A DNA stretch of 33,477 nucleotides. Origin: Eubacteriales Family XIII. Incertae Sedis bacterium (GTDB lineage: Bacteria; Bacillota; Clostridia; Peptostreptococcales; Anaerovoracaceae). Shown here piece after piece: positions 3,047-18,492 of the stretch (position 1 is its first letter; each line of letters opens with the position of its first letter). Location: positions 1-33,477 of the forward strand of contig JAITMX010000012.1 of the NCBI GenBank assembly GCA_031290775.1. Direction: 5' to 3'. The translations under genes and the position numbers were made by a program. A model generated the notes under the pieces. That model was not told the DNA's origin and made no database searches. It saw only the letters and a program-made list of their open reading frames with translations.

Positions 3047-4150
3047 ATGAAAGCATTAAATCTACATGGTATCGGCGATTTGCGCTATGAAAACGCCCCA
3101 ATGCCCGAGCCGGGGGCGGATGAAGTGCTGCTCAAAGTGCTCGCGGCGGGCATCTGCGGTTCGGACATCCCCCGCGTATTCACAAAAGGCGCCTATCATT
3201 TTCCGACAATCATAGGGCATGAATTTGCCGGCGAGATTGCGGCCGTCGGCGCGGGCGGGGACAAAGGCTTGATTGGCAAGCGCGCGGCCGTCTTTCCGCT
3301 GCTGCCCTGCTTTGCCTGCGACGCCTGCCAAGAGGAAAACTACGCGTCCTGCGCGGGCTACGGCTATTACGGCTCGCGGCGCGACGGCGCGTTTGCCGAA
3401 TACATCGCCGTCAAGAAATGGAACCTCATCCCCGTCCCCGAAAGCGTGCCGTCCCTATGGGCCGCAATGGCGGAGCCGTGCGCGGTGGCAATACACGCGC
3501 TCGGAAAAGCGGGCATCGGCAAGGGCGGCACCATCTGCATTTTCGGCGCCGGCGCCATCGGGCTCATCATCGCGCAGCTCGCGCGCGGCATGGGCGCAAA
3601 AAACGTTGTCCTGCTCGATGTCGATCCGGAAAAACTCGCGTTTGCGCGCGGGCAAGGTTTTGAACACGCGTTGGACAGCAGCGGCGATGCGTGCCCGGAG
3701 GCGATCCGGAGGCTCACAGGCGGCAAAGGCGCGGATGCCTGCGTCGACGCGGCCGGCGCCCCGGCGGCGGTCGCGGGCTGCCTGAAAGCCGCCGGCGCGT
3801 CCTCTACCGTCGTGCTCATGGGCAACCCCGCCGGCGATATGATGCTGAAACAGCAAGACTACTGGGAGATCCTGCGCAAACAGCTCACACTGAAAGGCAC
3901 TTGGAATTCCGACTTTGGCACACGGAAAAACGATTGGAAAACGGCGCTGCGCTGCATGGAAAACGGTATGCTCGACCTTTCCGCGCTCATCACGCACACA
4001 TTCCCCCTGAAAGACGCGGCAGCGGCCTTTGAGCTTGCGCGTGACCGTAATGAGTTTTATGTAAAGATTTTATTCCTGCCCAACGGACAAGCCGGGAATG
4101 GCAATATAAATGCAAATAAAAGCGAAATCGAAAGGAATGAAACGCGATGA
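3047..4150 (+). CDS. GatD-like zinc polyol-phosphate dehydrogenase (galactitol-1-phosphate 5-dehydrogenase family)
   Basis: 367 residues of the medium-chain dehydrogenase family. Catalytic zinc ligands appear as C37 (GICGSD), H58-E59 (GHEF) and E143. The structural zinc site is C88, C91, C94, C102; the NAD site is GAGAIG (167-172). 'IPRVFTKGAYHFP', 'PLLPCFACDAC' and 'YGSRRDGAFAEYI' closely follow E. coli GatD, which oxidises galactitol 1-phosphate to tagatose 6-phosphate. The true polyol phosphate is uncertain. It lacks a ribosome site and seems to be read from a leaderless message. It overlaps the next dehydrogenase by 4 bases (ATGA), so the three plus-strand genes form an operon. The last 20 residues are low-complexity and polar. 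Confidence 0.85.
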   Translation: MKALNLHGIGDLRYENAPMPEPGADEVLLKVLAAGICGSDIPRVFTKGAYHFPTIIGHEFAGEIAAVGAGGDKGLIGKRAAVFPLLPCFACDACQEENYASCAGYGYYGSRRDGAFAEYIAVKKWNLIPVPESVPSLWAAMAEPCAVAIHALGKAGIGKGGTICIFGAGAIGLIIAQLARGMGAKNVVLLDVDPEKLAFARGQGFEHALDSSGDACPEAIRRLTGGKGADACVDAAGAPAAVAGCLKAAGASSTVVLMGNPAGDMMLKQQDYWEILRKQLTLKGTWNSDFGTRKNDWKTALRCMENGMLDLSALITHTFPLKDAAAAFELARDRNEFYVKILFLPNGQAGNGNINANKSEIERNETR

Positions 4151-5199
4151 AGGCCGCCGTACTCGAAACGCTCGAACACCTCATTGTAAAAGAGGTCCCC
4201 GACCCGGTGATCGGGCCGGACGAGGCGCTCGTCAAGGTCTGGGCCTGCGCGGTCTGCGGCTCGGACATCCGGATCTTCCGCCACGGCAACAGCCGCGTAC
4301 GCCCGCCCGCCATCTTGGGCCACGAATCCTCGGGCGAGATTGTGGCCGTCGGCGACCGCGTCACAGGCTTTTCGGCCGGCGACCGCGTCGCGCTCGGGTC
4401 AGACGTCCCCTGCGGCGAATGCGCGGCCTGCAAGGCCGGTTTCGGCAACAATTGCCGCATCAACTACGCGATGGGCTATCAGTTTCAGGGGAGTTTCGCC
4501 GAATACGTCCCGCTGAACCGCATCATGCTCAATCATGGGCCCGTACACAAAATCCCGCCGGGCATGGGCTATGACGAGGCCGCGCTCGCGGAGCCGCTCG
4601 CTTGCGTACTGAACGCGGTCGAATTTGCAAACGTCAAACTCGGCGACACCGTTGTCGTCATGGGCGCGGGTCCGATCGGCTGTATGATCATCCCCGTTGC
4701 CCTCATGAGCGGCGCGACGAAAGTCATCGCGATCAACCGCTCGCCCGGACGCCTCGAATTTGCCAAACAGGCCGGCGCGGATGTGGCAATCTGCTCCTCC
4801 GAGGAAGACCCTGTCGCGCGCGTGCTCGAAGAGACGGATGGCTTCGGCGCCGATGTGGTCTTTACGGCAAACCCCACGCCGCAGTCCCACATCGACGCGC
4901 TGAAAATGGCCAAAAACCGCGGGCGCGTCAATCTTTTCGGCGGCTTGCCCGCAGGCACAAAGGTCGAGCTTGAAACCAACCTGATCCATTACAAAGAGCT
5001 GCTCGTATCGGGTGCGCACGGCTCTGTGCCGCGCCATCACAAACAGGCGCTCGACCTCATCGCTTCCGGGCGGCCCGATATCAGGCCCTTTATCTCGCAC
5101 CGTTTTTCGCTTGATGAGATCGGGCAGGCTTTTCGCACGGCGGAAAGCAAGGAGGGCCTGCGCGTGATTGTGAAGCCATGGGGCAAAGACGGTGACTGA
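4147..5199 (+). CDS. Zinc-dependent medium-chain alcohol/polyol dehydrogenase
   Basis: 350 residues, sorbitol/threonine-dehydrogenase-like. Catalytic zinc residues are C37 (VCGSD), H59-E60 (GHES) and E149. The structural zinc cysteines are 89, 92, 95 and 103, and the Rossmann motif is GAGPIG (173-178). Such enzymes oxidise a secondary alcohol of a polyol or polyol phosphate with NAD(P)+ in the cytosol; the substrate cannot be read from the sequence. It is paired with the GatD-like gene by a 4-base overlap and followed by an epimerase gene, so it probably serves the same sugar pathway. Confidence 0.85.
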   Translation: MKAAVLETLEHLIVKEVPDPVIGPDEALVKVWACAVCGSDIRIFRHGNSRVRPPAILGHESSGEIVAVGDRVTGFSAGDRVALGSDVPCGECAACKAGFGNNCRINYAMGYQFQGSFAEYVPLNRIMLNHGPVHKIPPGMGYDEAALAEPLACVLNAVEFANVKLGDTVVVMGAGPIGCMIIPVALMSGATKVIAINRSPGRLEFAKQAGADVAICSSEEDPVARVLEETDGFGADVVFTANPTPQSHIDALKMAKNRGRVNLFGGLPAGTKVELETNLIHYKELLVSGAHGSVPRHHKQALDLIASGRPDIRPFISHRFSLDEIGQAFRTAESKEGLRVIVKPWGKDGD

Positions 5200-5224
5200 A
5201 AGGAAAGAGGCGCGCGCGAAACAC

Positions 5225-5896
5225 ATGAAGAAGCATATCAAGCTCTCGCCCAGTATGATGTGCGCCGATATCGGCGCGTTGAAAGAAACGCTGGCGCTCT
5301 TTGAAAAACACGGCATCGACACCCTCCATATTGATGTCATGGACGGCGTTCTTGTGCCGAACCTCATGCTCGGCACGGACTTTTGCAAACGGCTGCGCAA
5401 TCTGACGGACATCCCGCTCGACATCCACTTGATGATTGCGGACCCGGAGCCCAAAATCGCGTGGTTTGACCCGCAGCCCGGCGAATACGTCTCTATCCAT
5501 GCCGAAAGCGCCAAACACCTGCACCGCGCGATTTTGGCCGTAAAGGCCACAGGCGCGACGCCGCTCGCGGCGCTCAATCCCGCCACGCCGCTTTCGTCCG
5601 TCAGCTATATAATGGAGGATGTGGCAGGCGTGCTGCTCATGCTTGTGAATCCGGGTTACGCCGGGCAGGCGCTCGTCCCCGACGCGCTGCGCAAAATCAA
5701 AGACCTGCGCGCCCTCGCGGACAGCAAGGGGCTTTCGGGTTTCGAGATTCAGGCGGACGGAAACGTCGGCTTTGCGAACGCGGCCGAAATCGTCAAGGCA
5801 GGCGCCGACTGCCTCGTCCTCGGCTCCTCAAGCGTCTTTTCAAAAGAGCGCCCTTTGGAAGAAGCCATCCTGAAAACCAAGGCCGCGCTCCCGTAG
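5225..5896 (+). CDS. Ribulose-phosphate 3-epimerase family; AlsE-like (D-allulose-6-phosphate 3-epimerase)
   Basis: About 223 residues. A GTG at 5192 would add 11 polar residues and overlap the previous gene; I prefer ATG 5225 because the fold normally starts a few residues before 'LSPSMMCAD', though the ribosome site there is poor. Counting from that ATG, the metal and catalytic residues are H35 and D37 (HIDVMDG), H68 (IHLMI) and the Asp of 'QADGN'. 'LSPSMMCAD', 'LNPATPLSSVSYI' and 'VNPGYAGQALVP' resemble E. coli AlsE more than housekeeping Rpe. It epimerises C3 of a ketose phosphate. Last gene of the plus-strand operon; it would turn an allulose- or ribulose-type phosphate into a glycolytic or pentose-phosphate intermediate. 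Rpe remains possible. Confidence 0.85.
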   Translation: MKKHIKLSPSMMCADIGALKETLALFEKHGIDTLHIDVMDGVLVPNLMLGTDFCKRLRNLTDIPLDIHLMIADPEPKIAWFDPQPGEYVSIHAESAKHLHRAILAVKATGATPLAALNPATPLSSVSYIMEDVAGVLLMLVNPGYAGQALVPDALRKIKDLRALADSKGLSGFEIQADGNVGFANAAEIVKAGADCLVLGSSSVFSKERPLEEAILKTKAALP

Positions 5897-5914: not shown

Positions 5915-6877
5915 CTACCGCTTCGCGAAGTTTGCGTACCCCAGACCATCCATCGTGGCCTCCATGATCCGCGCCGCCTCAAAAATATTGTCGTCAATAT
6001 ATGCCGTCGCTTCGGCGGCCTCGAAATCGCCCTTTTCGATGAGCGGCATTCGCTCCATCAGCCGCTTCGCCGCGTACTGCCCCGACGTGCGCACGATCCG
6101 CGTCCACATATTCACGCGCACGACGCCGTCCCCGGCAAGCCCGCGGATATCCTCGTCTTTCATGCTCGACACCCCGTGCAGCACAAGCATCTTGCGGCCA
6201 AGCGCCTCCGTCAGCGCGCGCGCCCTGCTTCCGAGGTAGACCGCCTCTGTCAAGGAGGACTGCTGCTCGGTGCCGAGGTCGGCAACGAGGAAATCCACCC
6301 CGGTCTTGCCGATAAAGTCCACAGCCTTTTCAACATAGTCGCCGGACCGCTTCCCCGGCGCGCCCTCGACGGCAAGGTTTTCGATGATGCCCTCGACCAG
6401 CACCTTGCTGCCAAAATCACGCACATAGTCCCGCGTCATTTCGAGGTTTTCCGCGTACGGATACCCCTGCGCATCAAACATCACGCTCGTGAGGATGTCC
6501 GTATTCTCTGTCAGCGCCCGGCGGTCGGCCTTTGGGTCGGCGTGGTCGAGATGCGCCATCACCGCGACGTTTTTGTACGGCGCGCACGGCCCCTCGCACA
6601 GCATTTTGCAATAATCGAATACCGCGCGCAAGCCGATCCGCTCGTCCCTGCTGTAGCTCACGCGCTTTGCCTGCGCCATATGGGAATAAAGGCTTGTCAT
6701 CGCGACAACGACGGGAATGTTTTCGATGCCGTGTTTTTCCGCAAAATTGCCCGCCGCGAGCAGGATCGCCTCCGTGTTCCAAAAGCTTCCCGTGCAAAAG
6801 AGCGCGACGCTCACGCCTTTTGCGCCCGCGTCGTCAAAAATCCGCTTCGCTTCGTTTCGGTCTGTGATATAAGGCAT
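5915..6877 (-). CDS. Class II aldolase-like protein with an altered zinc site
   Basis: About 320 residues from ATG 6877, which has AAGGAAAG upstream; the longer track ORF starts in the kinase relic and is not used. It follows the FbaA/GatY/KbaY fold: 'MAHLDHAD' (catalytic Asp111, zinc His112), 'SVMFDAQGYPYAENLEMT' (matching SVMIDGSH...ENI..T), 'VEGIIENLAVEG', 'VADLGTEQQ' and 'LVLHGVSSMKDEDI' (His234). The family's second zinc histidine sits in GTAHG; here the position reads GTEQQ, so that ligand is Gln. It may use a different metal geometry or reaction. Last gene of the ABC-led operon, converging with the AlsE-like gene 18 bases away. It likely cleaves or condenses a ketose phosphate, but the activity is uncertain. 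Confidence 0.75.
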   Translation of the reverse strand: MPYITDRNEAKRIFDDAGAKGVSVALFCTGSFWNTEAILLAAGNFAEKHGIENIPVVVAMTSLYSHMAQAKRVSYSRDERIGLRAVFDYCKMLCEGPCAPYKNVAVMAHLDHADPKADRRALTENTDILTSVMFDAQGYPYAENLEMTRDYVRDFGSKVLVEGIIENLAVEGAPGKRSGDYVEKAVDFIGKTGVDFLVADLGTEQQSSLTEAVYLGSRARALTEALGRKMLVLHGVSSMKDEDIRGLAGDGVVRVNMWTRIVRTSGQYAAKRLMERMPLIEKGDFEAAEATAYIDDNIFEAARIMEATMDGLGYANFAKR

Positions 6878-6899
6878 TTTCTTTCCTTTCCCCCTTGTA

Positions 6900-7047
6900 C
6901 ATATCCGGGATACCGCTCGCGAGCGTGAGCCCCGCAAATGTGGGCATACGATACCGCGCTGCCGGCCGCGTACGCAACCGTCGCTTTGCAGCCGGACGTC
7001 CCAACGCCCAGCCCGATATAGTATGTTCCCCGCAACTGTCCCGCCAT
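6900..7047 (-). pseudogene. Relic of an FGGY carbohydrate kinase (N-terminal stump)
   Basis: In the gap between the dehydrogenase and aldolase genes the minus strand encodes 'TYYIGLGVGTSGCKATV' and then 'ARERYPGYVQG'. This is the start of a xylulokinase-type FGGY kinase (YIGIDVGTSGxKA...), about 48 residues long, after which the frame runs into the ribosome site of the aldolase gene. The conserved Asp of DVGTSG is Gly. About 450 residues of a normal kinase are absent. I read this as an internal deletion that removed the operon's kinase. Confidence 0.6.
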
Positions 7048-7059
7048 TCCGCCGAAAAC

Positions 7060-8139
7060 TCAATCGATCAAAACGAGGCCCTTGATCTTGTCGTCCCGGC
7101 TCTCCTTCATATACTTGATGCCCTCTTCCGTTTGGCCGAGCGTGAACTTGTTTGTAATGATGGGCGACAAATCAACCTGCCCTGACGCGACCGCGTGGAA
7201 GACATTGTCCCACACGAGCGGCGCGAGCCACGCAAAGCGGATCGTGCGCTCGGACTGAATCGCGCCGAGCACATCGATCTTCAGGCGATCTTCCGGGGAC
7301 GGCAAGCCAAAATAGCAGATCGTCGAGCAAGGGCCCGTCACGCGCAGCGCGTCCTGGAGCGCGTCGATATTGCTCGTCGGCACGATGCAGCGCGGCGCAA
7401 GCTCCCCGCCGTTCCATTCGCGCACCTTCGCGGCCGTATCGCCCGAATAATATTTGGAATTTTTGTCGCGCACATTGATCGCGTGGTCGGCGCCGGTCGC
7501 GAGCGCCTTCTCGATGCCGTAGTCGCGCACGCCGACCGCGATGACCTTGCCGGCGCCCGAGGCTTTTGCGAGCTGCACCATCATGAGCCCGATGCCGCCG
7601 AGGCCATAGACGACGACGGCCTGCCCAAGCTTGATGTCGAGATCAAAAATCCCATGCGTCGCGCAGGCGAGCGGCTCGGACAGCGCCGCCGACTCAAAGC
7701 TGACCTCGTCCGGAATCCTGTACGCGTGCGTGAACTTGACCTTCACATACTCCGCAAAACACCCATTGACAGAAACGCCGATGACCTCGCTGTGCGAACA
7801 GACATTAAATTCGCCGCGCATACAGGCAGGGCAGGCGTTGCATTGCTGCACCGGGTTGATGGCGACGCGGTCGCCTTCTTTGAAAAGCCCCATCCTCTTC
7901 GGAATCGCGCCAACCTCGGCAATGACGCCGGAAGCCTCATGCCCCAAATACAGCGGCCCCTTGCCGTCCGGCGTGTCAAGCGGGCTGTGCCCATAATAAT
8001 AGCTGACGTCGGAACCGCAAATGCCGACCGCCTTGACGCGCACAAGCACCTCATTGTCCGCAATCCGCGGAATGGGATGCTCCTCGACCTTCATCACCAA
8101 AGGCTCATAAAAATTGACAGCTTTCATACAACCATCCAT
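7060..8139 (-). CDS. Zinc-dependent medium-chain dehydrogenase (sorbitol/L-idonate dehydrogenase-like)
   Basis: 359 residues. A strong AAGGAGGAGG lies eight bases before ATG 8139. Catalytic zinc residues are C41 (GICGSD) and H67-E68 (GHEA), with SEP near 155. Structural cysteines are 100, 103, 106 and 114; the Rossmann motif is GLGGIG (179-184). 'SYYYGHSPLDTPDGKGPLYLGHEASG' resembles sorbitol and L-idonate dehydrogenases that act on free polyols or sugar acids. It sits in the ABC-led operon after the cupin gene, so it probably oxidises or reduces an intermediate of the imported sugar. The kinase relic follows directly. Substrate unknown. Confidence 0.85.
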   Translation of the reverse strand: MDGCMKAVNFYEPLVMKVEEHPIPRIADNEVLVRVKAVGICGSDVSYYYGHSPLDTPDGKGPLYLGHEASGVIAEVGAIPKRMGLFKEGDRVAINPVQQCNACPACMRGEFNVCSHSEVIGVSVNGCFAEYVKVKFTHAYRIPDEVSFESAALSEPLACATHGIFDLDIKLGQAVVVYGLGGIGLMMVQLAKASGAGKVIAVGVRDYGIEKALATGADHAINVRDKNSKYYSGDTAAKVREWNGGELAPRCIVPTSNIDALQDALRVTGPCSTICYFGLPSPEDRLKIDVLGAIQSERTIRFAWLAPLVWDNVFHAVASGQVDLSPIITNKFTLGQTEEGIKYMKESRDDKIKGLVLID

Positions 8140-8178
8140 TGCACTTTCCCTCCTCCTTCAAAATAACCGCAACCAACC

Positions 8179-9372
8179 TCATTGCGGCATACCGCAGTCC
8201 GGCCCAAAATGCTTGAGCATCACCAACGGCTCCACAGGCGACTCGTTGCGAACAAGCACGCCGGCCTTCGCGCGCGCGCTGCCCACATAAAACTCGTCGC
8301 AGGTGAGCTGCCCATAGCGAATCAGCGTAGGGGACTCCATCGCAAACCCGCCGAAACGCCCATGCCCCTGCACGCAGAGGCAGCCATAGGCGGCCGCGTC
8401 GCGGATGATGGCCTCGGCGCCGGGCAGGAGCGTGAGCTCCTTCGCCGCCACATAGGGATTGCCGTAGCACACCCAATCCTGCGACCAACCCTCCCCGCCC
8501 TCGTCCCGCACAGGCGGGCGGAAAAAAACCTCGCGGTAATTGGGCAGCGTGTTGAGCTCCCAGTCCGCGACATCGAGGATCGCGTCGAGGTCGCGTTCCT
8601 TTCCGGGCGGCAGATAGCCGGACAGCCAGCCGTAGTCAAAGATCTCGCCGGAGCCGACGACATTTTCCCAAAGCGCCATCACGTCGCTGTTCCACTGCGG
8701 CTCGTAGGTGCAGAGCGAACCGGGCGCGTGCACGACGCCCGCCGGCGTGTACCAACCCGTGCCGAGCTCAACCTGAAAGGCGCGCGACAATTCAAGGATG
8801 CGCGTATTCTCCGTCTCGTGCTTCGCGAGCCGGGCCTTCACCTCTTCCTTTGTGACCGAAGGGTCAAACCCGAAAAACGTCGTGGGGCGCGTCCCGAGGT
8901 GGTTGTTGTACTGCTTCGGGAAAAAATAATGCTCATGCTTCGGCGTCACGCCGACCTTCGCGCAGGCTTCCGGCCCGTGGTGCACATGATGGAACAGCGG
9001 CTCATTGTAATCGTAAAACTTCGAGTACATCGGCCAAGTGCCGTATTTCCCATGCAATTCCTGCCCGTAAAGCTCCGGCCCGAGCGCGTCCACAAAATCC
9101 TTGAACAGGATCGTATGCGCCGAATCGCCGTCCACGTTCACGAAACTCATGCCCTCATACGGCTCCGCGCCCTCCGTCTCGACCCTTGTGACAGACGAAA
9201 ACCAGCGCTCCACAATCGCGCCGCGCTTCATCCCCATCGCGTAGTAATCGTCGGGGTGCAGGCGGATGCGCTTGCCGGGCCGGTTGAAGGGGCGCGGCAC
9301 CCACGTTGGCGCAAGGCTCAAAATCCCCCCGCCCGCCTCAAGTATTTGTTTCAATCGATCTGTATCTGCCAT
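8179..9372 (-). CDS. Cupin-type protein related to class I mannose-6-phosphate isomerase
   Basis: 397 residues; GGGG precedes ATG 9372 by six bases. The middle holds a cupin-like metal site: 'HHVHHGPEACAKVGVTPKHEHYFFP' (about 127-151), then 'GWYTPAGVVHAPGSLCTYEPQ' (about 209-229), which corresponds to the PAGxxHA segment of mannose-6-phosphate isomerases. The N-terminus ('PTWVPRPFNRPGKRIRLHPDDYY') and C-terminus add a second half-barrel. The expected role is aldose-ketose isomerisation or sugar binding in the cytosol, but it is divergent from ManA and the substrate is unknown. It lies between a TIM-barrel epimerase gene and a dehydrogenase gene in the same operon. Confidence 0.7.
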   Translation of the reverse strand: MADTDRLKQILEAGGGILSLAPTWVPRPFNRPGKRIRLHPDDYYAMGMKRGAIVERWFSSVTRVETEGAEPYEGMSFVNVDGDSAHTILFKDFVDALGPELYGQELHGKYGTWPMYSKFYDYNEPLFHHVHHGPEACAKVGVTPKHEHYFFPKQYNNHLGTRPTTFFGFDPSVTKEEVKARLAKHETENTRILELSRAFQVELGTGWYTPAGVVHAPGSLCTYEPQWNSDVMALWENVVGSGEIFDYGWLSGYLPPGKERDLDAILDVADWELNTLPNYREVFFRPPVRDEGGEGWSQDWVCYGNPYVAAKELTLLPGAEAIIRDAAAYGCLCVQGHGRFGGFAMESPTLIRYGQLTCDEFYVGSARAKAGVLVRNESPVEPLVMLKHFGPDCGMPQ

Positions 9373-9408: not shown

Positions 9409-10293
9409 TCACGCAAACTTCTCATTGAACGCGTCGACAAACTTCTTGCAATCCGCCGTCGCCTCCCACGCGTCCGGGCACTCGCAAAGGTCGATCGCCC
9501 ACCAGTCGCCCGCATAGCCGGCATCGAGCAGCGCGGGGACGACCTCGTCGAAATTGAGGGCGCCCTGCCCAAACGGCGCGTGCGTGCTTGTGTTCTCGCC
9601 GTTCAGCGTGCCGTCGCTGTCGATGACGTGCACAAAGCCGATCTTGCCCTTCAGCAAGTCGATAAATTCGAGAATGCCGCCCGCAAGCACGTCCGGCTCG
9701 ATGTGGTTGGCGCCCTTCGCCGCCGACATATAGCCGTGACAGGTGTCAAACAAAATCGAAAAATTCGGCTCATCAACTTTTTCGTAGGTTTCGAGGATGT
9801 ACTTCGGCTCGTTGACGATGAAACCGGGCTCAAACTCCCAGACCACCTGCTGGCCGTGCCGCGCGGCGTATTTCGAGATGCGCTTGAAATTGTCCGCGAC
9901 CTTGGCGCGCGCCTGCCCATACGTCCAGCCCTCCGGCAGGACGGGCGGCGCGCCCGTGTCCACGCGTATCGTCTTCCAGCCCATTTTGCCCGCGAAGTCG
10001 CTGCTTTCCTCAAAAAGCCCGATCCACGCTTCCGTCTGCTTCAGCGAATCGACGCTCCATAGGTCAACCGCGTAATCCGCGACTTCGAGGCCGTTGTCCG
10101 AGAGCAGCTTTGCGAGCTCGGCCCTTTTTTCGTCCGTATCCCAGTCCTTCGGCGCCGCGTGCGGCGCAAAACCGCCCATGCTGATCCCGTCAAATTTGAG
10201 CTCGGAGAGCTTTTTCGACGCTTCGGGAAGCAGGATCGGCGTCTCGAGAAAGGCGTACGCCCAACTGCCGATGCTTACTTTTTTCTTTGCCAT
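9409..10293 (-). CDS. Sugar phosphate isomerase/epimerase (xylose-isomerase-like TIM barrel)
   Basis: About 294 residues. I start at ATG 10293 (AAAGGAGA seven bases upstream); the 68 extra residues of the track ORF are translated repeat DNA. Probable metal ligands are the Glu of 'VWEFEPGF', the Asp of 'LFDTCHGYM', the His of 'GFVHVIDSDG' and the Glu in 'IDLCECPDAWE', the usual E-D-H-E set of this family. It probably isomerises or epimerises a sugar derivative. It is separated from the upstream epimerase gene by a 167-bp hairpin repeat, which may reduce or separate its expression. One of four related TIM barrels in the operon. Confidence 0.85.
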   Translation of the reverse strand: MAKKKVSIGSWAYAFLETPILLPEASKKLSELKFDGISMGGFAPHAAPKDWDTDEKRAELAKLLSDNGLEVADYAVDLWSVDSLKQTEAWIGLFEESSDFAGKMGWKTIRVDTGAPPVLPEGWTYGQARAKVADNFKRISKYAARHGQQVVWEFEPGFIVNEPKYILETYEKVDEPNFSILFDTCHGYMSAAKGANHIEPDVLAGGILEFIDLLKGKIGFVHVIDSDGTLNGENTSTHAPFGQGALNFDEVVPALLDAGYAGDWWAIDLCECPDAWEATADCKKFVDAFNEKFA

Positions 10294-10322
10294 ACCATGT
10301 TCTCCTTTTCTCTTCGCCTGTA

Positions 10323-10489
10323 GTCGTAGAGTGCCACGCGCTAAAGCGCTGCACTCCTGACAGACGTCCTGCCACGGTAGAGTGCCACGCGGCAAAGCCG
10401 CTGCACTCCTCGATGTGCGAGGTACAACGGAGCTGAAGCTCCTGTACCTCTGCCAACGATTCGCTTCGCGAATCGGGTTAGGACTGTCA
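10323..10489. repeat. 167-bp modular hairpin element (repeat locus B)
   Basis: It runs from GTCGTAG (10323) to GGACTGTCA (10489), the same ends as the 87-bp insert at 18793-18879. Modules in order are GAGTGC-CAC-GCGCT/AGCGC-T-GCACTC (10329-10356), GAGTGC-CAC-GCGGC/GCCGC-T-GCACTC (10380-10408), GAGGTAC-AAC-GGAGCT/AGCTCC-T-GTACCTC (10419-10450) and CGATTCGC/GCGAATCG (10457-10475). Its last three bases are the TGA stop of the epimerase gene on the minus strand. It lies within the operon between two genes, so its RNA would fold in the message. No coding content. Confidence 0.75.
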
Positions 10490-11341
10490 TTCCGCAAAAA
10501 GCCCCTTCAAAAACGGCACCCCGTCCCGCGCGATCGCCTCGGGCGATTCGGAAAACGGCCGCCACACCGATGCCGCTTTCGCAATCTCGACGCAGTCCGG
10601 CGTGAAAGACTCGATGATGCAATAATCGTCATATCCGACATCCCGAATCGCGTCGCGGATCGAAGCCCAGTCCGTGTTGTCCTTGCCCGGCGTCCCGCGG
10701 TTGTTCGCGCTCGTATGAAAATCGTAGATACGGCACTCCGTGCCCGCGAGCCGGATCGCGGCCGGCACATTGTTTTCCTCGATGCCCATATGGAAGCTGT
10801 CCAGCAGGAAGCCGACATTGCCATAGCCGATGCGGTGGATGTAGTCAACGCCCTGCTCGACCGTGTTGATAAAGTCGGTTTCAAAGCGGTTGAGCGTTTC
10901 GATGGCAAACTTGATGCCCTTCTTCGCGCCATAGTCCGCGATGATCTTCATGTTTTCGACGCCGTACTTCCACTTGAGCCCGACCTCATCGGGCGTTTGC
11001 TGCCTCGCCTTGCCGACAGCCGAATAAATCGGCCCCGCGATGACTTCGGCGCCGATCGCCGCCGCAAAATCGACCATGTCCTTCGCGTACCGGATGCCGG
11101 AATCCCGGAAATCCGCCTCGTCCGCCGAGATGTCGCGCACCTCGTTGTGGATGCCCGTGACGGTCTTGATGAGCACGCCCGTGTCCTCGACGGCCTTGTT
11201 GATCGCGTCCGGGTCGAGCGTGGAAAAATCCTCCAACGCAAGCTCGAAAATGTCGCAGCCGTATTTTTTCGCGAGCCGGAGCAGGCGGTCGATCTCCGTG
11301 ACGGGAGACTGCCAGGCGAGTGAATTGATCCCGAATTTCAT
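10487..11341 (-). CDS. D-tagatose/D-psicose 3-epimerase family protein
   Basis: 284 residues; AGGAGGG lies seven bases before ATG 11341. 'IETLNRFETDFINT' (147-160), 'LLDSFHMGIEENN' (179-191) and 'GPIYSAVGK' match the ketose 3-epimerase family (P. cichorii D-tagatose 3-epimerase, Agrobacterium D-psicose 3-epimerase). The metal set E148, D181, H209, E244 is complete and nearly co-linear with E152, D185, H211, E246 of the Pseudomonas enzyme. It should epimerise C3 of a free ketose in the cytosol. The stop codon is supplied by the end of repeat locus B. It follows the Gfo/Idh/MocA gene by 12 bases. Confidence 0.88.
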   Translation of the reverse strand: MKFGINSLAWQSPVTEIDRLLRLAKKYGCDIFELALEDFSTLDPDAINKAVEDTGVLIKTVTGIHNEVRDISADEADFRDSGIRYAKDMVDFAAAIGAEVIAGPIYSAVGKARQQTPDEVGLKWKYGVENMKIIADYGAKKGIKFAIETLNRFETDFINTVEQGVDYIHRIGYGNVGFLLDSFHMGIEENNVPAAIRLAGTECRIYDFHTSANNRGTPGKDNTDWASIRDAIRDVGYDDYCIIESFTPDCVEIAKAASVWRPFSESPEAIARDGVPFLKGLFAE

Positions 11342-11353
11342 GCCGCTTCCCTC

Positions 11354-12508
11354 CTATTCTTCATCGAGCGCGACCCAGGCCGCGCCCGCCTCATGGCTGT
11401 CGACGCATTTGTTGAAAAACTCGACGCCGTCGATGCCCTGCTGTATCGTCGGATAGCCATAATCGTCTTCATTCACGGCCTTGCCGGCTTTCTTGTCGCG
11501 CACAGCCGCGGCAAAATCCGTGTAGATGTTTGCGAAAGCCTCGGTCAGCCCCTCCGGGTGGCCCGTCGGCACGCGCGCATACTTCGCCGCTTCGGGCGTC
11601 AGGTAGCCCGCGCCGCGCGAATATATCTGCGGCGGCTTCCCGCGCAGCGAAACCTTCAGATAGTTGTTTTCCTCCTGGACAAACTCGATTGTGCCCTTCT
11701 CGCCAAAGACGCGGATTTTCAGCGCGTTGTCAAAACCGATGGCGACTTGGCTCGTCCAGTACATCCCCGTCGCGCCGCCCTTGAATTTGATGAGCGCCTC
11801 GACATTGTTGTCAAGCACGCCGCCCTGCCCAAAGACGTCGAGATGGCAGGCGAGCTTGTCGATCTTGAGCCCGGTCACGTAGCCTACCCAGTTTTCGATA
11901 TGCGTCCCCAGATCCGCCACAGCCGCGCCCCTGCCCGAAAGCGCCGGGTCCGCGCGCCACGGCCTGTTGCCCTCCGTGATGGTTTCGAGCGTGTCAAGCA
12001 GCCAGTCCTGCGGGTACTCGCCCATGACCATGCGGATGTCGCCGATCGCGCCATTTCGGATGAGCTGGCGCGCCTCCCGCGCCATCACATGCCCCGTATA
12101 GGTGTAGGTGACGCAAAACAGGCAGCCGTGCCCCGCCGCGACGCGTTTCAGGTCGCGGCCTTCCTCCGCCGTGAAACACAGCGGCTTTTCGCAGACGACA
12201 TTGATGCCCTGCTCGAGAAAGAGCTTGGCCGCCGGATAGTGAAAGCGGTTGGGCGTCACGATATCGACCCAGTCGATTTTGTCCGCGCGCGCCCCTTCGG
12301 CCAAAGCCATCTCCTCAAAGGAGCCGTAAACCCGGTCTGGCGCCAGGCCCATTTCGGCGCCCGCCTTCGCGCGCGCCCCCTCCGGGATCACATCTGCCCA
12401 AGAGACGAGATCCGCCTCGTCATTCAGCCGGATCGCCGCGCGGTGCACGCCGCCGATGAAAGCGCCGGGGCCGCCGCCGACCATACCATATGTCAACTTG
12501 TCCGTCAT
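11354..12508 (-). CDS. Gfo/Idh/MocA-family NAD(P)-dependent oxidoreductase
   Basis: 384 residues; GGAGGGG lies five bases before the ATG. The N-terminal Rossmann fold carries 'GMVGGGPGAFIGGVHR' (8-23) and the family marker 'EKP' (107-109, VVCEKPLCFTA). The C-terminal sheet domain holds 'AVADLGTHIENWVGYVTG', placing the conserved His in the substrate pocket. Such enzymes oxidise or reduce a ring hydroxyl of inositols, glucosides or sugar derivatives. Neighbouring TIM-barrel isomerase genes on both sides (12 bases each) suggest that the oxidised sugar is the substrate of one of them. Confidence 0.9.
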   Translation of the reverse strand: MTDKLTYGMVGGGPGAFIGGVHRAAIRLNDEADLVSWADVIPEGARAKAGAEMGLAPDRVYGSFEEMALAEGARADKIDWVDIVTPNRFHYPAAKLFLEQGINVVCEKPLCFTAEEGRDLKRVAAGHGCLFCVTYTYTGHVMAREARQLIRNGAIGDIRMVMGEYPQDWLLDTLETITEGNRPWRADPALSGRGAAVADLGTHIENWVGYVTGLKIDKLACHLDVFGQGGVLDNNVEALIKFKGGATGMYWTSQVAIGFDNALKIRVFGEKGTIEFVQEENNYLKVSLRGKPPQIYSRGAGYLTPEAAKYARVPTGHPEGLTEAFANIYTDFAAAVRDKKAGKAVNEDDYGYPTIQQGIDGVEFFNKCVDSHEAGAAWVALDEE

Positions 12509-12519
12509 GATGGCCCCTC

Positions 12520-13509
12520 CTATTCGTTGCCCATCGCCGCGTCAAAGGCCACATCGGACGGCGCAAAATCGACCTTTTTCACAAAGGCCGCGGCCTCCGT
12601 CCCGCCATAGACGCGCTCCATGCCGCTGTCTTCCCATTCCACCGAAAGCGGGCCCGTGTAGCCGCCCGCGTTGAGCTCGCGTATGATCTCCTCGAAATTG
12701 ACGTCCCCGTGGCCGAGCGAACGAAAATTCCAGCCGCGTTTCGTGTCCCCAAACGTGAGGAAAGAGCCGAGGATGCCGGCCTTGCCGTCAAGCGTGACCG
12801 CCGCGTCCTTCATGTGGACGTGGTAAACGCGGTCTATGAAGTCGCGCAGGAAAATCGTCGGGCTGACGCCCTGCCAGATCAGATGGCTCGGGTCGTAATT
12901 GAGGCCAAGCGTCTTGCGCCCGCCAAATTCCTTCACCAGGCGCTGCCACGTATAGTAGTCAAACGCGATTTCGGTCGGGTGGACCTCGAGCGCAAACAGC
13001 ACGCCCGCCTTGTCAAATTCGTCAAAGATCGGCGACCACAGCTCGACGATTTTCGCGTAGCCCGCGTCTACGATCTCGTCTGTCGTCTGCGGGAAACTAT
13101 ACCAATAGGCCCAGATCGGCGAGCCGAGAAAGCCCGTGACCACGCTGACGCCGAGGTTTTTCGCGGCCCACGGGACGGCTTTCATCGTTTCGACCGCCCA
13201 CGCGCGGATTTCCTCCGGCTTGCCTGCGAGCGCGCTTGGCGCAAAGCCGTCGAGGCGGGGGTCCCAGTTGTCGCCGACGCACTGGCCGACCACATGCGCC
13301 GCGACCGCATAGGTTTTCAGCCCGTATTTGCCAAGCGTCGCCAAAATGCCGTCCGCGTAGGCCTTGTCCTGCGCCGCCCTCCTTGCGTCAAAATGCGCGC
13401 CCTCCATCAGCTCAAGGCCATCGTAGCCCATTTCCCTCGCGAGTTCGCAAAGCGGATCGAGGCCGAGATCGCCCCACTGCGCCGTCATAAGTGTTACAGG
13501 TCTTGCCAT
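12520..13509 (-). CDS. Sugar phosphate isomerase/epimerase (TIM barrel, often found with Gfo/Idh/MocA)
   Basis: 329 residues; AAAGGAG lies six bases before the ATG. Expected metal ligands are the Glu in 'FALEVHPTEIAFD', the Asp in 'LNYDPSHLIWQGV', the His in 'VYHVHMKDA' and the Glu in 'LSVEWEDSG'. The PSHLxWQG segment is typical of a subgroup usually encoded beside Gfo/Idh/MocA dehydrogenases, as here. The reaction is not known; isomerisation, epimerisation or lyase action on a keto-sugar are all precedented in this fold. Confidence 0.87.
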   Translation of the reverse strand: MARPVTLMTAQWGDLGLDPLCELAREMGYDGLELMEGAHFDARRAAQDKAYADGILATLGKYGLKTYAVAAHVVGQCVGDNWDPRLDGFAPSALAGKPEEIRAWAVETMKAVPWAAKNLGVSVVTGFLGSPIWAYWYSFPQTTDEIVDAGYAKIVELWSPIFDEFDKAGVLFALEVHPTEIAFDYYTWQRLVKEFGGRKTLGLNYDPSHLIWQGVSPTIFLRDFIDRVYHVHMKDAAVTLDGKAGILGSFLTFGDTKRGWNFRSLGHGDVNFEEIIRELNAGGYTGPLSVEWEDSGMERVYGGTEAAAFVKKVDFAPSDVAFDAAMGNE

Positions 13510-13531
13510 TTCAGGCTCCTTTCCGGCACGC

Positions 13532-14380
13532 TTACGCGTTCCATAGTTTTTCGATATAATCCGCGCTCTGCCGCAGCGTTTCGGGCGTGCCCGCGACTTC
13601 GAGCGTTGAATAATGTATTTTTTCGCTGTCTTTCAAGACTTCGATAACGCCGGCAATGTCGATCTTGCCGGTGCCGACCGGGATGGTCGAAAAGCCGCAG
13701 CCGTAGATCGTGCCGCGCTTCGGGACCCATTCCTCGCCGAGGTCTTTCCAATGGATGTGGTATATTTTGTCCTTATATGTCTTTGCAAGCTCGACCGGGT
13801 CGGTCCCGCCGAGCCAAGAGTTGCCTGTGTCCATGTTGACGCCGAGCGGTTTCGGGTTGCCGAGCAGCTCCATGACGTCGCCGATGCCTGTGATGCTGTC
13901 CGTGAGCGGCCCGTGCGGCTCAAAAATCACGTTGACGCCGTAGTCCTCCGCCATGCGGCAGGGCTGGTACAGTTTTTCGGCGCAGGTAAAGACGCACTGG
14001 TCGTAAGAAAGGCTTTTGGCCCAATCGCTCTTGGGGTAGGTTTCTGTCGTCACGACGTCGCGGATGCCGATGGCGGCCGCAAAGCGGATGGCCTGCATGA
14101 TTTCCCGCGTCTGAAATTCGCCCGGATGCGAGGCCTCAAGCAGCGCCGCGTGCGCGCTGACCGTCATGATCTCCATATCGTACTTTTCAAAGAGCCTTTT
14201 GATATCAAAGGGATTGCTGTCGAGGCTGATTGAAGCGGAAAGCCCCGCGGAAGCAAACATACTGCCGCCCGAATGGGTGTCGGTGATGTCCGCGCAGGAA
14301 AAGCCCGCCTCTTTCGCAAGTTTCAGATTGTGCTCAACGCTTGTGTAGGGCTCAAGCGCGAGGAATACGCCGATTTTCAT
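13532..14380 (-). CDS. Sugar phosphate isomerase/epimerase (TIM barrel)
   Basis: 282 residues; GGGAGG lies six bases before ATG 14380. Metal ligands are the Glu of 'VIFEPHGPL', the Asp of 'GVNMDTGNSW', the His of 'IYHIHWKDLG' and the Glu of 'STLEVAGTP'. The core HIHWKD is shared with the Gfo-linked sugar isomerase/epimerase group. First enzyme gene after the binding-protein gene, separated from it by a strong hairpin that may lower its expression relative to the transporter gene. Substrate unknown. Confidence 0.87.
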   Translation of the reverse strand: MKIGVFLALEPYTSVEHNLKLAKEAGFSCADITDTHSGGSMFASAGLSASISLDSNPFDIKRLFEKYDMEIMTVSAHAALLEASHPGEFQTREIMQAIRFAAAIGIRDVVTTETYPKSDWAKSLSYDQCVFTCAEKLYQPCRMAEDYGVNVIFEPHGPLTDSITGIGDVMELLGNPKPLGVNMDTGNSWLGGTDPVELAKTYKDKIYHIHWKDLGEEWVPKRGTIYGCGFSTIPVGTGKIDIAGVIEVLKDSEKIHYSTLEVAGTPETLRQSADYIEKLWNA

Positions 14381-14519: not shown

Positions 14520-15752
14520 TCAATAACCCGGGATTTCGAGGAACTTCGGGTCATTGATATCATAGACGATGCTGCCGTTGTTGCAGCCTTCGACAAAGGC
14601 GTTGATGTCCGTCTCCGGGACGAGGCTGGGCTCAAGCTCCGCGATCGTATCCTTCGTGTAGCCTGTCAGGTACGGATGCACATGCGCTTTGGCGACGGAA
14701 CCGGTCGCGAAATACTCTTTCACCATTTGATAAAGCAGCGCGCCTTCCATGCAGGAGCTCTGGTTGACGTCCATCGAAAGCACGCCGTCCTTCGTCCACT
14801 GCCAGCTGACCTCGCGGCCATTCATGCTGCCGAGCCAATAATCGTCCGTAGACAGGCCCTGCTCCTTCATCGCGTTGATCGCGCCTTCGGTCATCGGGTT
14901 GTTCTGGACATAAGCGCCGTCCCAACCGTCTTTGCCGAGCGCGGAAATCGCGTCGAGCATCACTTTCTGCGCCGGCTCTGTCATCCAGTTGCCGGATGCC
15001 CACTGCACGACGACGACGTCCGGATTGCCCTTGATGTCGGATGCCGGCGGCTTCAGCGTCGCGACGTCTTCCGCCGTCCACGCAGCGCCGTCCGCCTTTT
15101 CGCCGAGGCTCTTGCCGGCCTCTTCATAGGCTTTCAGGAAGCCGAGCGACTGCGCGGACGCGGAGCCCTGCCCGAGCACGCCTTCGATAATGATGGCGTT
15201 TTTCACGCCGTTCGCAAGCGCGTCCTGGCCGGCAAGGCGGCCGCCCTGCTCAAAGTCATAGTTTGTGCTGCCTGTGGAATCCTTTGCGTTCGCCGCCTCG
15301 GCGAAATTGTGCGCGGCGCCGAAGTACGGGATATTGGCCGCTTTCGCTTTTTCGATGCACTCGCTCGTCGTGTTCGGATTGTTCTGGATCACGATGATGG
15401 CGTCGTAGCCCGCGGTGATAAAGTCTTCGACCGCTTTCAGCTGCTCGTCCGCCGTGCTCTGGCCGACCTTGTAATCGACGACCCAGTCGCATTCCGGGTC
15501 TTGGTTCGCAAGCGCCTGCAATGCGTCGTTCATGTCGGCATAGTAGGAGTCGGCCGCGTCGGCGTAGAAACCGATCGTCTTCGTCACTACATCCCCTGCT
15601 GGCGGCGCCTCTGCGGGCGCCGTGCTGCCGCTGTCCGCCGGCGGCGTGGTCGGCGGCGCGCTTGTCGAGCCGCACCCGACCGCAAAAACAAGTACCATGG
15701 CGATCGCGAGGATCAGCACCAGCGCTTTGCTCTTCTTCATCTGTCTCATCAT
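14520..15752 (-). CDS. Sugar ABC transporter substrate-binding lipoprotein (RbsB-like)
   Basis: 410 residues; GGAGGAG lies just before tandem ATGs (15752 and 15749). Residues 1-26 are a lipoprotein signal (MKKSK, hydrophobic run, 'VFAVGC'), giving lipidated Cys27. A Thr/Ser/Pro/Ala linker follows (about 28-55). The mature part is a periplasmic-binding-protein type 1 domain starting 'TKTIGFYADAADSYYADM', with 'GYDAIIVIQNNPN' and 'GVLGQGSASAQSLGF' as in ribose/galactose-type binding proteins. In a Gram-positive it would sit on the outer membrane face and hand its sugar or polyol to the permease encoded upstream. Confidence 0.92.
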   Translation of the reverse strand: MMRQMKKSKALVLILAIAMVLVFAVGCGSTSAPPTTPPADSGSTAPAEAPPAGDVVTKTIGFYADAADSYYADMNDALQALANQDPECDWVVDYKVGQSTADEQLKAVEDFITAGYDAIIVIQNNPNTTSECIEKAKAANIPYFGAAHNFAEAANAKDSTGSTNYDFEQGGRLAGQDALANGVKNAIIIEGVLGQGSASAQSLGFLKAYEEAGKSLGEKADGAAWTAEDVATLKPPASDIKGNPDVVVVQWASGNWMTEPAQKVMLDAISALGKDGWDGAYVQNNPMTEGAINAMKEQGLSTDDYWLGSMNGREVSWQWTKDGVLSMDVNQSSCMEGALLYQMVKEYFATGSVAKAHVHPYLTGYTKDTIAELEPSLVPETDINAFVEGCNNGSIVYDINDPKFLEIPGY

Positions 15753-15793
15753 TTACTCCTCCTTCGTTTGTATCAATAGTTAAATTCTGCTTT

Positions 15794-15840
15794 GATAACG
15801 GATAACTGCAAGATATAACGGATAACTGCAAGATATAACG
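15794..15840. repeat. Two and a third tandem copies of a 20-bp repeat
   Basis: GATAACTGCAAGATATAACG is repeated exactly at 15801-15820 and 15821-15840, preceded by the partial copy GATAACG (15794-15800). It lies about 42 bases before the start of the binding-protein gene. It could be a regulator site or a simple slippage product. Confidence 0.6.
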
Positions 15841-15860
15841 GTCTGTATTGTTAAAGCAAG

Positions 15861-15887
15861 CAAATGGCGCTTGCGTTTAGCCATTTG
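15861..15887 (-). other. Hairpin between permease and binding-protein genes
   Basis: CAAATGGC (15861-15868) and GCCATTTG (15880-15887) form a perfect 8-bp stem with an 11-base loop, just downstream of the permease stop. In the minus-strand transcript it is followed by CTTGCTTTAAC, too few U residues for a good terminator. A processing or attenuation role is plausible. Confidence 0.45.
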
Positions 15888-15907
15888 TTTTTCCCGCGCC
15901 CCGATTT

Positions 15908-17002
15908 TCATCCCGCCGCCTTGTCGATCGCCGCCGTGGCGAGTGTCGAGGCGTCCTGCTTGATGCGCAGCTGGCGCTTGGCCTGCATATTCGCCACGAT
16001 CGCGGCCGCAGATACGGCGCCGATGATGATGAGTCCCTTTGCCACGTACTGCCACTCCGCGTTCAGGCGCAGAATGTTCATCCCGTTTTCGATAGCCCCC
16101 ATGAGGATGGCGCCGATGAATACGCCCCAGATGGAGCCCTTGCCGCCCGACAGGGCGACCCCGCCGATGACGGCCGAAGCGATGACGTCGATCTCCTTGT
16201 TTTGCCCGACGGTGATGATAGCCGTGTTGACGCGCGCGAGCAGGCAGAGCGACGCGACCGCAACGAGCAGGCCGTTGAGGATATAGGTCGAAAAGATGAT
16301 ATTCTTGACGTCGATGCCCGCGAGATAGGCCGCGTTCTTGTTTGCGCCGACCGCGTAGATTCTGCGCCCATACTTTGAAAAGCGCATGACAATCCAGATG
16401 ATGACCGTGATGGCGATGAAAATGAAGATGTACGGCGGCACATTGACGACGAGGCCCGCAGGGTCTTTGACGCCCGTGATGACGGAAGTCTTCAGGGGGT
16501 CCATCGCGCCCTTCATGCTGATCTCCTGGGAGTGCACGACAAGCAGCGCGACCCCCCGGAAGCAGATCATGCCCCCGAGCGTGATGATGAAAGGCTCCAC
16601 GTTGAGCCTTGACACGATGAAGCCCATGCCCGCCTCAAAAGCGATGGCAAAGATCACGGCCGTGATGAGCGCCGCCTGCAGCGACAAACCATAGTCCGTA
16701 TAGCTCTTGGCCGCGTACAGGACGACAAAACTCGTCAGCATGCCAACCGACAGGTCGATGCCGCCCGCGATCATGATCAGCGCCATCCCCATCGCCATGA
16801 TGCCCGTCGCGGAAACCTGCGAAAGCACGTTGGCAAGATTGGCGGGGGCGATCATCGTCGGGAATTTGCCCGGCGTCAGCGAAAACACTTGGACGAGCGT
16901 GATGATGAGCACAAACGCGACCCATATCACGAGCACGTTCATGTTTGCGCTCCAGTGAAATTCAAATTTCCTCTTGCCGATCCTCTCGCCGGAGTCGCTC
17001 AT
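15908..17002 (-). CDS. Sugar ABC transporter permease (RbsC family)
   Basis: 364 residues with about nine hydrophobic segments. 'IMIAGGIDLSVGML' (about 76-89) is the hallmark of RbsC/AraH/XylH-type permeases, and 'GRRIYAVGANKNAAYLAGIDV' with 'SAVIGGVALSGGKGSIWGVFIG' are its other conserved loops. GGAGG lies nine bases before the ATG, which overlaps the ATPase stop by 4 bases. Forms the membrane channel of the importer as a dimer. Confidence 0.93.
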   Translation of the reverse strand: MSDSGERIGKRKFEFHWSANMNVLVIWVAFVLIITLVQVFSLTPGKFPTMIAPANLANVLSQVSATGIMAMGMALIMIAGGIDLSVGMLTSFVVLYAAKSYTDYGLSLQAALITAVIFAIAFEAGMGFIVSRLNVEPFIITLGGMICFRGVALLVVHSQEISMKGAMDPLKTSVITGVKDPAGLVVNVPPYIFIFIAITVIIWIVMRFSKYGRRIYAVGANKNAAYLAGIDVKNIIFSTYILNGLLVAVASLCLLARVNTAIITVGQNKEIDVIASAVIGGVALSGGKGSIWGVFIGAILMGAIENGMNILRLNAEWQYVAKGLIIIGAVSAAAIVANMQAKRQLRIKQDASTLATAAIDKAAG

Positions 17003-18492
17003 ATCTTTTTCCCTCCTATGGAATATTCGAGCACGTTTGCTTCCGTGACCTCATCGCCCGCGACTTCGCCTACGATGCGGCCGTCTTTCATGACCATGAC
17101 ACGGTCGCTCATGGAGATCACCTCGGGCATATCGGAGCTGACCATGACGATCGCTTTGTTGTCGCGCAGCAGTTCTGTCATGAGCTGGTAAATCTCCTGT
17201 TTGGCCCCGACATCGATGCCGCGCGTCGGTTCGTCAAAGATGAAGATCTCCCCGTCCGTATTAAACCATTTGGCGAGGACGACCTTTTGCTGGTTGCCGC
17301 CCGAAAGATTGCCGACGAGCACGTCCGCGTTCTTCGCCTTGGTCCCGAGTTTCTTGATATATTCCGCGCCGATCTCCTCTTCCTTTTTCGGCATATAGAA
17401 CGAGCCGGAGGAAATCAGCAGGTTTGCGATAATCGTGTTGCGCGCGATCGTATGGATGAGGAAGAGGCCCGTATGCTGCCTGTCCTCCGTGATATAGCAC
17501 ATCTTGTGCCGTATCGCCGAGCGCGGGCTTTTCAGGTTGGCCTCGTGCCCGAAAATCTCCAGGCTGCCGCCAAGCTTTTGGGCGCCGCCGAAGAGCAGCG
17601 TCATGAGCTCGCTGCGGCCGGAACCGACCATGCCGGCAAAGCCAAGCACCTCGCCCCGCCGCACCCTGAAGCTGCAGTCGCTGACCCCGTTTCCCGTGAG
17701 CCCCTTCGCTTCGAGCACGACCTCGCCGGGCTTGAAATGCTCGCGGTTGTAAAACGCCGACGCGTCGCGGCCGACCATCTGGCGGATGAGCTCTTTCCCG
17801 GTGATCTGGTCCGCGCCGCACGTATTGATGTGTTTGCCGTCGCGCAAAATCGTGATGCGGTCGGCGATCTTTTCGACCTCGTCCAAGTGGTGCGATATAT
17901 AAATGATGCCGATGCCGCGCTCCTTGATCTTGCGGACGATATCGAGCAGGTTGCCGATCTCCGTGACCGAGAAAGAAGCGGTCGGCTCGTCGAGGATAAT
18001 GACCTTGCGGTCAAAGATGAGCGCCTTCGCAAACTCGACGATCTTTTGCTCGCCCGACGAAAGGTTTTCCGTGAGCTCGTCGGGATCGATGCCGCTGCTC
18101 AGGTAGTCGAGGACCTCCTGTGTACGCTTGCGCATCTCCTGCTTTTGCATGAAGCCGCCTTTCGTGATCTCCATGCCGACAAATATATTTTCCGTAACGG
18201 ACAAGGGGCCGAAGATCGTGTGCTCCTGATAGATGCATTGTATGCCGAGATCCATCGCGCCGAGCGGCGACAGCGCCACCTTTTGCCCTTCAAAAAAAAT
18301 CTCCCCGCCATCATCGGGCTGATACGCGCCTGAGATGATTTTGATCAGCGTCGATTTGCCCGCGCCGTTTTCGCCGCAGATGCAATGGATCTCCCCCGCG
18401 TTCAGCGTGAAGTCAATGTGATCGAGCGCCCGCACACCCGGAAAGGTTTTTGAAATGTCCGCGAGCCTCAGAAGTTCATGCGTTTGCGTCAT
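16999..18492 (-). CDS. Sugar ABC transporter ATPase, two ABC domains (RbsA/MglA family)
   Basis: 497 residues. The first ABC domain has Walker A 'GENGAGKST' (40-48), signature 'LSSGEQ' and Walker B 'VIILDEPTASF'. The second has the degenerate P-loop 'GMVGSGRSELMTLLFGG', signature 'LSGGNQ' and 'IFIFDEPTRGID'. This double-cassette arrangement is typical of the Rbs/Mgl/Ara sugar importer class. The ATG has AGAGGTG five bases upstream and lies about 28 bases from the predicted transcription start. First gene of the operon that runs to the aldolase gene at 5915. Confidence 0.93.
   Translation of the reverse strand: MTQTHELLRLADISKTFPGVRALDHIDFTLNAGEIHCICGENGAGKSTLIKIISGAYQPDDGGEIFFEGQKVALSPLGAMDLGIQCIYQEHTIFGPLSVTENIFVGMEITKGGFMQKQEMRKRTQEVLDYLSSGIDPDELTENLSSGEQKIVEFAKALIFDRKVIILDEPTASFSVTEIGNLLDIVRKIKERGIGIIYISHHLDEVEKIADRITILRDGKHINTCGADQITGKELIRQMVGRDASAFYNREHFKPGEVVLEAKGLTGNGVSDCSFRVRRGEVLGFAGMVGSGRSELMTLLFGGAQKLGGSLEIFGHEANLKSPRSAIRHKMCYITEDRQHTGLFLIHTIARNTIIANLLISSGSFYMPKKEEEIGAEYIKKLGTKAKNADVLVGNLSGGNQQKVVLAKWFNTDGEIFIFDEPTRGIDVGAKQEIYQLMTELLRDNKAIVMVSSDMPEVISMSDRVMVMKDGRIVGEVAGDEVTEANVLEYSIGGKKI

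Follow-up and report, generated by a model that had tools for sequence, protein, structure and literature searches.

The window (the whole stretch of 33,477 nucleotides of DNA analysed here) encodes a class II aldolase-like protein, a member of the family PF01116, in which glutamine stands in the place of the middle one of the three zinc-binding histidines. The same glutamine is found in all 45 homologues collected, from six phyla, and these make up a clade, GTEQ, that is real, conserved, and apparently new, no description of it having been found in the literature searched. The metal is probably held differently in this clade, and our preferred reading, put forward with moderate confidence, is that the protein is an active enzyme of sugar catabolism that would cleave a ketose phosphate by retro-aldol chemistry at a rebuilt, two-histidine metal site.

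The protein and its active site

The coding sequence begins with an ATG at position 6877; a longer ORF with a TTG start, reaching position 7063, had no homologue support. The 320-amino acid product matched PF01116 with 99.5 bits (the curated Pfam cut-off is 25.5), and with all the NCBIfam class II aldolase models its scores were far below the cut-offs. The source genome is a fragmented assembly, 86% complete, and contains on contig 39 a separate, canonical class II fructose-bisphosphate (FBP) aldolase (345 bits, vs. 98.9 for the window protein). An AlphaFold2 model made from a 42-row alignment had a pLDDT of 93.9, and its best matches in the PDB were class II aldolases (E 3e-16, TM 0.72–0.75 by query length), the nearest solved structures including those of the SqiA and KbaY types. 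Lower among the matches was an engineered Helicobacter pylori FBP aldolase (FBA), H180Q, with dihydroxyacetone phosphate (DHAP) and with FBP (5ud2 and 5ud3, respectively).

The residue equivalences were read from an alignment with Escherichia coli FbaA, GatY, KbaY, and YdjI (Table 1). Asp111, His112, Gln205, and His234 are in ungapped columns with FbaA D109, H110, H226, and H264, respectively, and His109 corresponds to FbaA H107. The original prediction, made from the sequence alone, held that this was a class II aldolase whose family motif GTAHG reads GTEQQ at residues 202–206, with two zinc histidines (H112 and H234) and the catalytic Asp111 remaining; the translation, the PF01116 match, and the alignment bear out the family, the motif, and the role of each residue. 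Another histidine at the ligand position, sought as a refutation, was absent, the only invariant histidines of the 42-row alignment being H109, H112, and H234.

The altered metal site that had also been predicted is real inasmuch as the Gln is present and kept, but the extent of the change had been understated, for FbaA Asn35, Asp288, and Glu174 are replaced by Cys28, Trp258, and Ile164, and these changes had been overlooked. In FbaA, the histidines H110, H226, and H264 bind zinc at both the exposed and the buried site, and at the buried site Glu174 binds it as well (PMC11194214). Since Glu174 is aligned with Ile164, the window protein differs from FbaA at two of these four zinc-binding positions. 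Among the features of a zinc-dependent class II FBP or tagatose-bisphosphate aldolase, the catalytic Asp is present, while the set of three zinc histidines and Glu174 are not. It is reasonable to infer that, owing to the Gln, both metal binding and the reaction would be different.

Table 1. Features of the window and active-site positions of the aldolase-like protein
Feature	Position	Strand	Remarks
PPi-type phosphofructokinase	1699–3009		Close to the window member of the clade only
Two zinc-type alcohol dehydrogenases	3047..5199	plus	Assigned from sequence without family scan; kept in L023–L026
Ribulose-phosphate/allulose-6-phosphate 3-epimerase family gene	5192..5896	plus	Adjoins the aldolase gene; kept together in L023–L026
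Class II aldolase-like gene	5915..6877	minus	320 amino acids and stop; GTEQ clade of PF01116
Zinc ligand His234 (LHG)	6176..6178	minus	Alignment
GTEQQ motif, residues 202–206	6260..6274	minus	Translation and alignment
Gln205, codon CAG	6263–6265	minus	Replaces the zinc His (FbaA His226, GatY His180)
Ile164	6386..6388	minus	Replaces the buried-site zinc ligand FbaA Glu174; alignment
Catalytic Asp111 and zinc ligand His112 (HLDH)	6542..6547	minus	Alignment
Zinc alcohol dehydrogenase	7060..8139	minus	Nearest NCBIfam model IolM, under cut-off
Conserved 397-amino acid protein	8179..9372	minus	No match in Pfam or NCBIfam, none convincing in the PDB
Four xylose-isomerase-like TIM barrels and a Gfo/Idh oxidoreductase	9409..14380	minus	Part of the same sugar locus; 9409–12508 scanned; 12520–14380 assigned from sequence
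Sugar ABC transporter (binding protein, permease, ATPase)	14520..18492	minus	Assigned from sequence

Conservation and origin of the clade

Homologues were taken from genome contigs and from class-wide and phylum-wide collections, giving 45 distinct sequences about 47–76% identical to the window protein, from Bacillota, Spirochaetota, Chloroflexota, Actinomycetota, Lentisphaerota, and Bacteroidota. Whether GTEQQ is conserved had been proposed as a check, and Gln205 was found in 45 of 45, followed at position 206 by Gln in 43 and Asn in two; the column of Gln205 is His in all 18 canonical sequences and in four of four proteins with the motif GTEHR. Its conservation across phyla shows the substitution to be real and maintained. 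Also invariant in the 45 sequences are D111, H112, E162, D200, E204, H234, S237, N256, W258, and T259.

With FbaA and GatY/KbaY, the window protein has in common the TIM barrel, the catalytic Asp, two of the three zinc histidines, the equivalent of Asn286, and the HGxS and NxxT motifs. Unlike them, the clade has Gln for the middle His, Ile (40 sequences) or Val (five) for Glu174, Cys for Asn35 (Cys28 in 42 of 45), and Trp for Asp288; its gene neighbors are different, and the window protein is under every NCBIfam cut-off. The GTEHR proteins (L068–L070 and L077) share with the clade Cys28, Trp258, the GTE motif, the absence of Glu174, and the fucose-isomerase-like and FGGY neighbors, but they keep the middle zinc His, carry Asn at position 200, where the clade has Asp, and differ in the C-terminal part.

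In a maximum-likelihood tree, the 45 Gln sequences formed a single clade (support 100/100), adjoined by the four GTEHR proteins, with all canonical sequences separate; the tree was midpoint-rooted, with a long branch to the canonical group, and does not in itself fix the order of the changes. The simplest history would be a single change from His to Gln at the base of the clade, placed after three others that the GTEHR sequences have in common with the clade (Asn replaced by Cys, Asp replaced by Trp, and Glu174 lost). Searches of plasmids and viral structures gave distant matches only. In one clade gene, from an Anaerolineae MAG (L063:10001–10955), the frame is lost midway, which is a frameshift or a sequencing error.

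Gene neighbors

Within about 5.5 kb of the clade gene, 27 of the 45 loci have an FGGY sugar kinase and 18 have a protein resembling fucose isomerase, for which the nearest NCBIfam model is SftI (under cut-off); one or the other was present in 34 of the 45, against none of 16 canonical class II aldolase loci with similar flanks, these counts being low estimates, as some loci end at a contig edge, and related loci not being independent. This linkage in most of the clade argues for a role in sugar catabolism. The model scoring highest with the linked kinase is the NCBIfam xylulokinase, also under cut-off. Genes of the arabinofuranosidase or alpha-galactosidase type are close to some members, and in one locus (L050) genes for a glycyl radical enzyme and an SDR accompany those for the aldolase, the kinase, and the isomerase, the glycyl radical enzyme being nearest to the glycerol/diol-dehydratase and choline-lyase types. 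Two compact clusters with GTEHR proteins (L071 and L073) also contain an FGGY kinase, a fucose-isomerase-like protein, and a protein that by eye resembles aldose-1-epimerases; apparently, they represent a sugar pathway without assignment.

The setting of the window gene recurs in related MAGs from the termite gut, in which the gene is found with an ABC transporter, TIM-barrel isomerase- or epimerase-like proteins, a Gfo/Idh oxidoreductase, zinc dehydrogenases, and the 3-epimerase. In L025, L026, and L028, an FGGY kinase gene sits directly between the aldolase gene and the orthologue of the dehydrogenase that is its neighbor in the window, and in the window locus and L023 the kinase is absent from this place. 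The only FGGY gene found in the window's genome (86% complete) is xylulokinase-like and lies beside xylA, and a search of the same genome for the fucose-isomerase-like protein gave no match.

The 397-amino acid protein is 77–87% identical in termite-gut Family XIII MAGs and 79–82% identical in Treponema MAGs. The dehydrogenase, this orphan, and the aldolase genes (5915–9372) are common to two Treponema loci (L030 and L032) and Bacillota MAGs, with 63–82% identity, a distribution that suggests transfer of the three genes between Spirochaetota and Bacillota. Elsewhere in the window, on the minus strand, a mannitol-1-phosphate 5-dehydrogenase (20300–21812) is apparently split over two overlapping frames, by a frameshift or an assembly error: in the first ORF the profile match begins at about position 92, the N-terminal part being in the other. 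On the same strand, 23582–26056 encodes an 824-amino acid protein that by eye resembles fused alpha and beta E1 subunits of a 2-oxoacid or acetoin dehydrogenase, adjoined (by eye) by E3 and E2 genes.

Proposed retro-aldol cleavage and its alternatives

Metal-assisted retro-aldol chemistry is suggested by the retention of the catalytic Asp and two zinc histidines, and an aldolase by the invariance of the HGxS and NxxT motifs, which in class II aldolases bind the phosphate of DHAP; N256, S237, and T259 presumably are part of this DHAP-end phosphate and substrate site. Having an ordinary class II FBP aldolase of its own, the genome would leave the window protein free to differ. In the reaction proposed, His112 and His234 would bind the metal, the third His being replaced by Gln205 or by a neighboring invariant acid (Glu204, Asp200, or Glu162), and the metal might be held more weakly, or stay fixed in one place without shuttling between two sites. 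Asp111 would start the retro-aldol chemistry, by which the substrate would be broken between C3 and C4. This substrate would be a ketose phosphate, most likely one phosphorylated at C1 by the neighboring kinase, and the products would be DHAP and a short aldehyde, for whose disposal the SDR and glycyl radical enzyme of L050 would be fitting. In the lineage of the window, whose locus has neither kinase nor isomerase, the ketose phosphate would come from the surrounding dehydrogenases and epimerases and from other kinases.

Several points weaken this reading: a different reaction could account just as well for the loss of the zinc His, Glu174, and Asp288; GatZ/KbaZ, with a similar site, are epimerases (PMC11907403); and the window locus has no FGGY kinase. 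A further one comes from H. pylori FBA H180Q, which has the same substitution at the same position, although it is a laboratory mutant of an ordinary aldolase, whereas the Gln of the clade is natural, spread across phyla, and accompanied by further changes. The title of the 5ud3 entry, with FBP bound, suggests that H180Q harms FBP cleavage in the ordinary enzyme. These mutant structures probably stem from Jacques et al. 2018.

Among aldolases with isomerase and kinase partners, the sulfofructose-phosphate aldolase SqiA is a PF01116 protein that works with a FucI-related isomerase and a PF00365 kinase (PMC9594981). It resembles the clade in family, partners, and predicted structure, being among the nearest structures; membership is ruled out, for SqiA retains the ligands of both zinc sites, which are not conserved in the clade, and the kinase associated with the clade belongs to the FGGY family.

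An aldolase is more likely than a 4-epimerase of ketoses or ketose phosphates, a serious but weaker candidate. Like GatZ/KbaZ or AraD, such an enzyme would carry out the same retro-aldol step and then rejoin the fragments from the opposite face, and the isomerase, the FGGY kinase, and the window protein would form an analogue of AraA-AraB-AraD. The 4-epimerases GatZ/KbaZ (PF08013) have two metal histidines, with GatZ Glu171 as the third ligand, a Cys instead of the Asn responsible for positioning the catalytic Asp, and a residue other than Asp at the position of FBA Asp253 (PMC11907403). The clade agrees with them in having only two metal histidines, in the change of Asn to Cys (42 of 45), and in the loss of FBA Asp253, and engineered FbaA H226A retains 4-epimerization of fructose 6-phosphate at a level comparable to wild type (PMC5434028). 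The preference of the neighboring kinase for the xylulokinase model (under cut-off), the 3-epimerase family gene beside the window gene, and the arabinofuranosidase or alpha-galactosidase-type genes beside some members also favor an epimerase. Against it, neither GatZ Glu171 nor the Glu proposed for FbaA epimerization is matched at the aligned position (Ile164), though other invariant acids are nearby; D288, required for epimerization by FbaA (PMC5434028), is Trp in the clade; and HGxS and NxxT, missing in GatZ, are retained. The similarity of the barrel profile to GatZ/KbaZ had a probability of 21% over 72 columns, against 99.5% for FBA, which rules out descent of the clade from GatZ/KbaZ; the PF08013 profile had no match in the window protein at E 0.001 and none in its genome. 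Should an epimerase be correct, a still more tentative proposal is that a sugar-phosphate 4-epimerase arose within the class II FBP aldolases, independently of GatZ/KbaZ, by loss of the middle His and in an AraA-AraB-AraD-like set. A stand-in for a missing AraD/FucA is unsupported, as PF00596 proteins were found in 13 of the 13 genomes searched.

That the protein has lost metal catalysis and instead assists another enzyme of the locus, as its partner or as a binding subunit, seems unlikely: two of its metal ligands are altered, as are two further active-site residues, and GatZ/KbaZ, once regarded as non-catalytic subunits, offer a precedent (PMC11907403), but invariance of the Asp, the two zinc histidines, and the Asn in 45 sequences about 47–76% identical would be unexpected without catalysis. 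A second ordinary FBP or tagatose-bisphosphate aldolase, with Gln merely substituting for His, agrees in fold and in most active-site residues and is nonetheless very improbable, given the canonical enzyme already in the genome, the concurrent changes of Glu174, Asn35, and Asp288, the scores far under all NCBIfam cut-offs, and the different gene neighbors. A sequencing or assembly error or a decaying gene, which a fragmented, 86% complete assembly might have produced, is refuted by the Gln in 45 homologues, its two synonymous codons (CAG in 37, CAA in eight), and a dN (0.17–0.21) well under dS (1.2–2.4, close to saturation) within the genus.

Class II aldolases serve as model metalloenzymes: three histidines hold a zinc that is mobile, and the middle His has been mutated in the laboratory to study catalysis. 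A natural clade with Gln at exactly this position, together with near relatives that keep the His, is a comparative pair, which would permit a direct test of the need for the third histidine and for zinc movement, and also of how an aldolase might be converted into an epimerase. The GTEQ clade is a little-studied, widely spread branch in which the metal is probably held differently and the reaction on a sugar phosphate may differ, and it points to a sugar pathway without assignment in gut and sediment bacteria.
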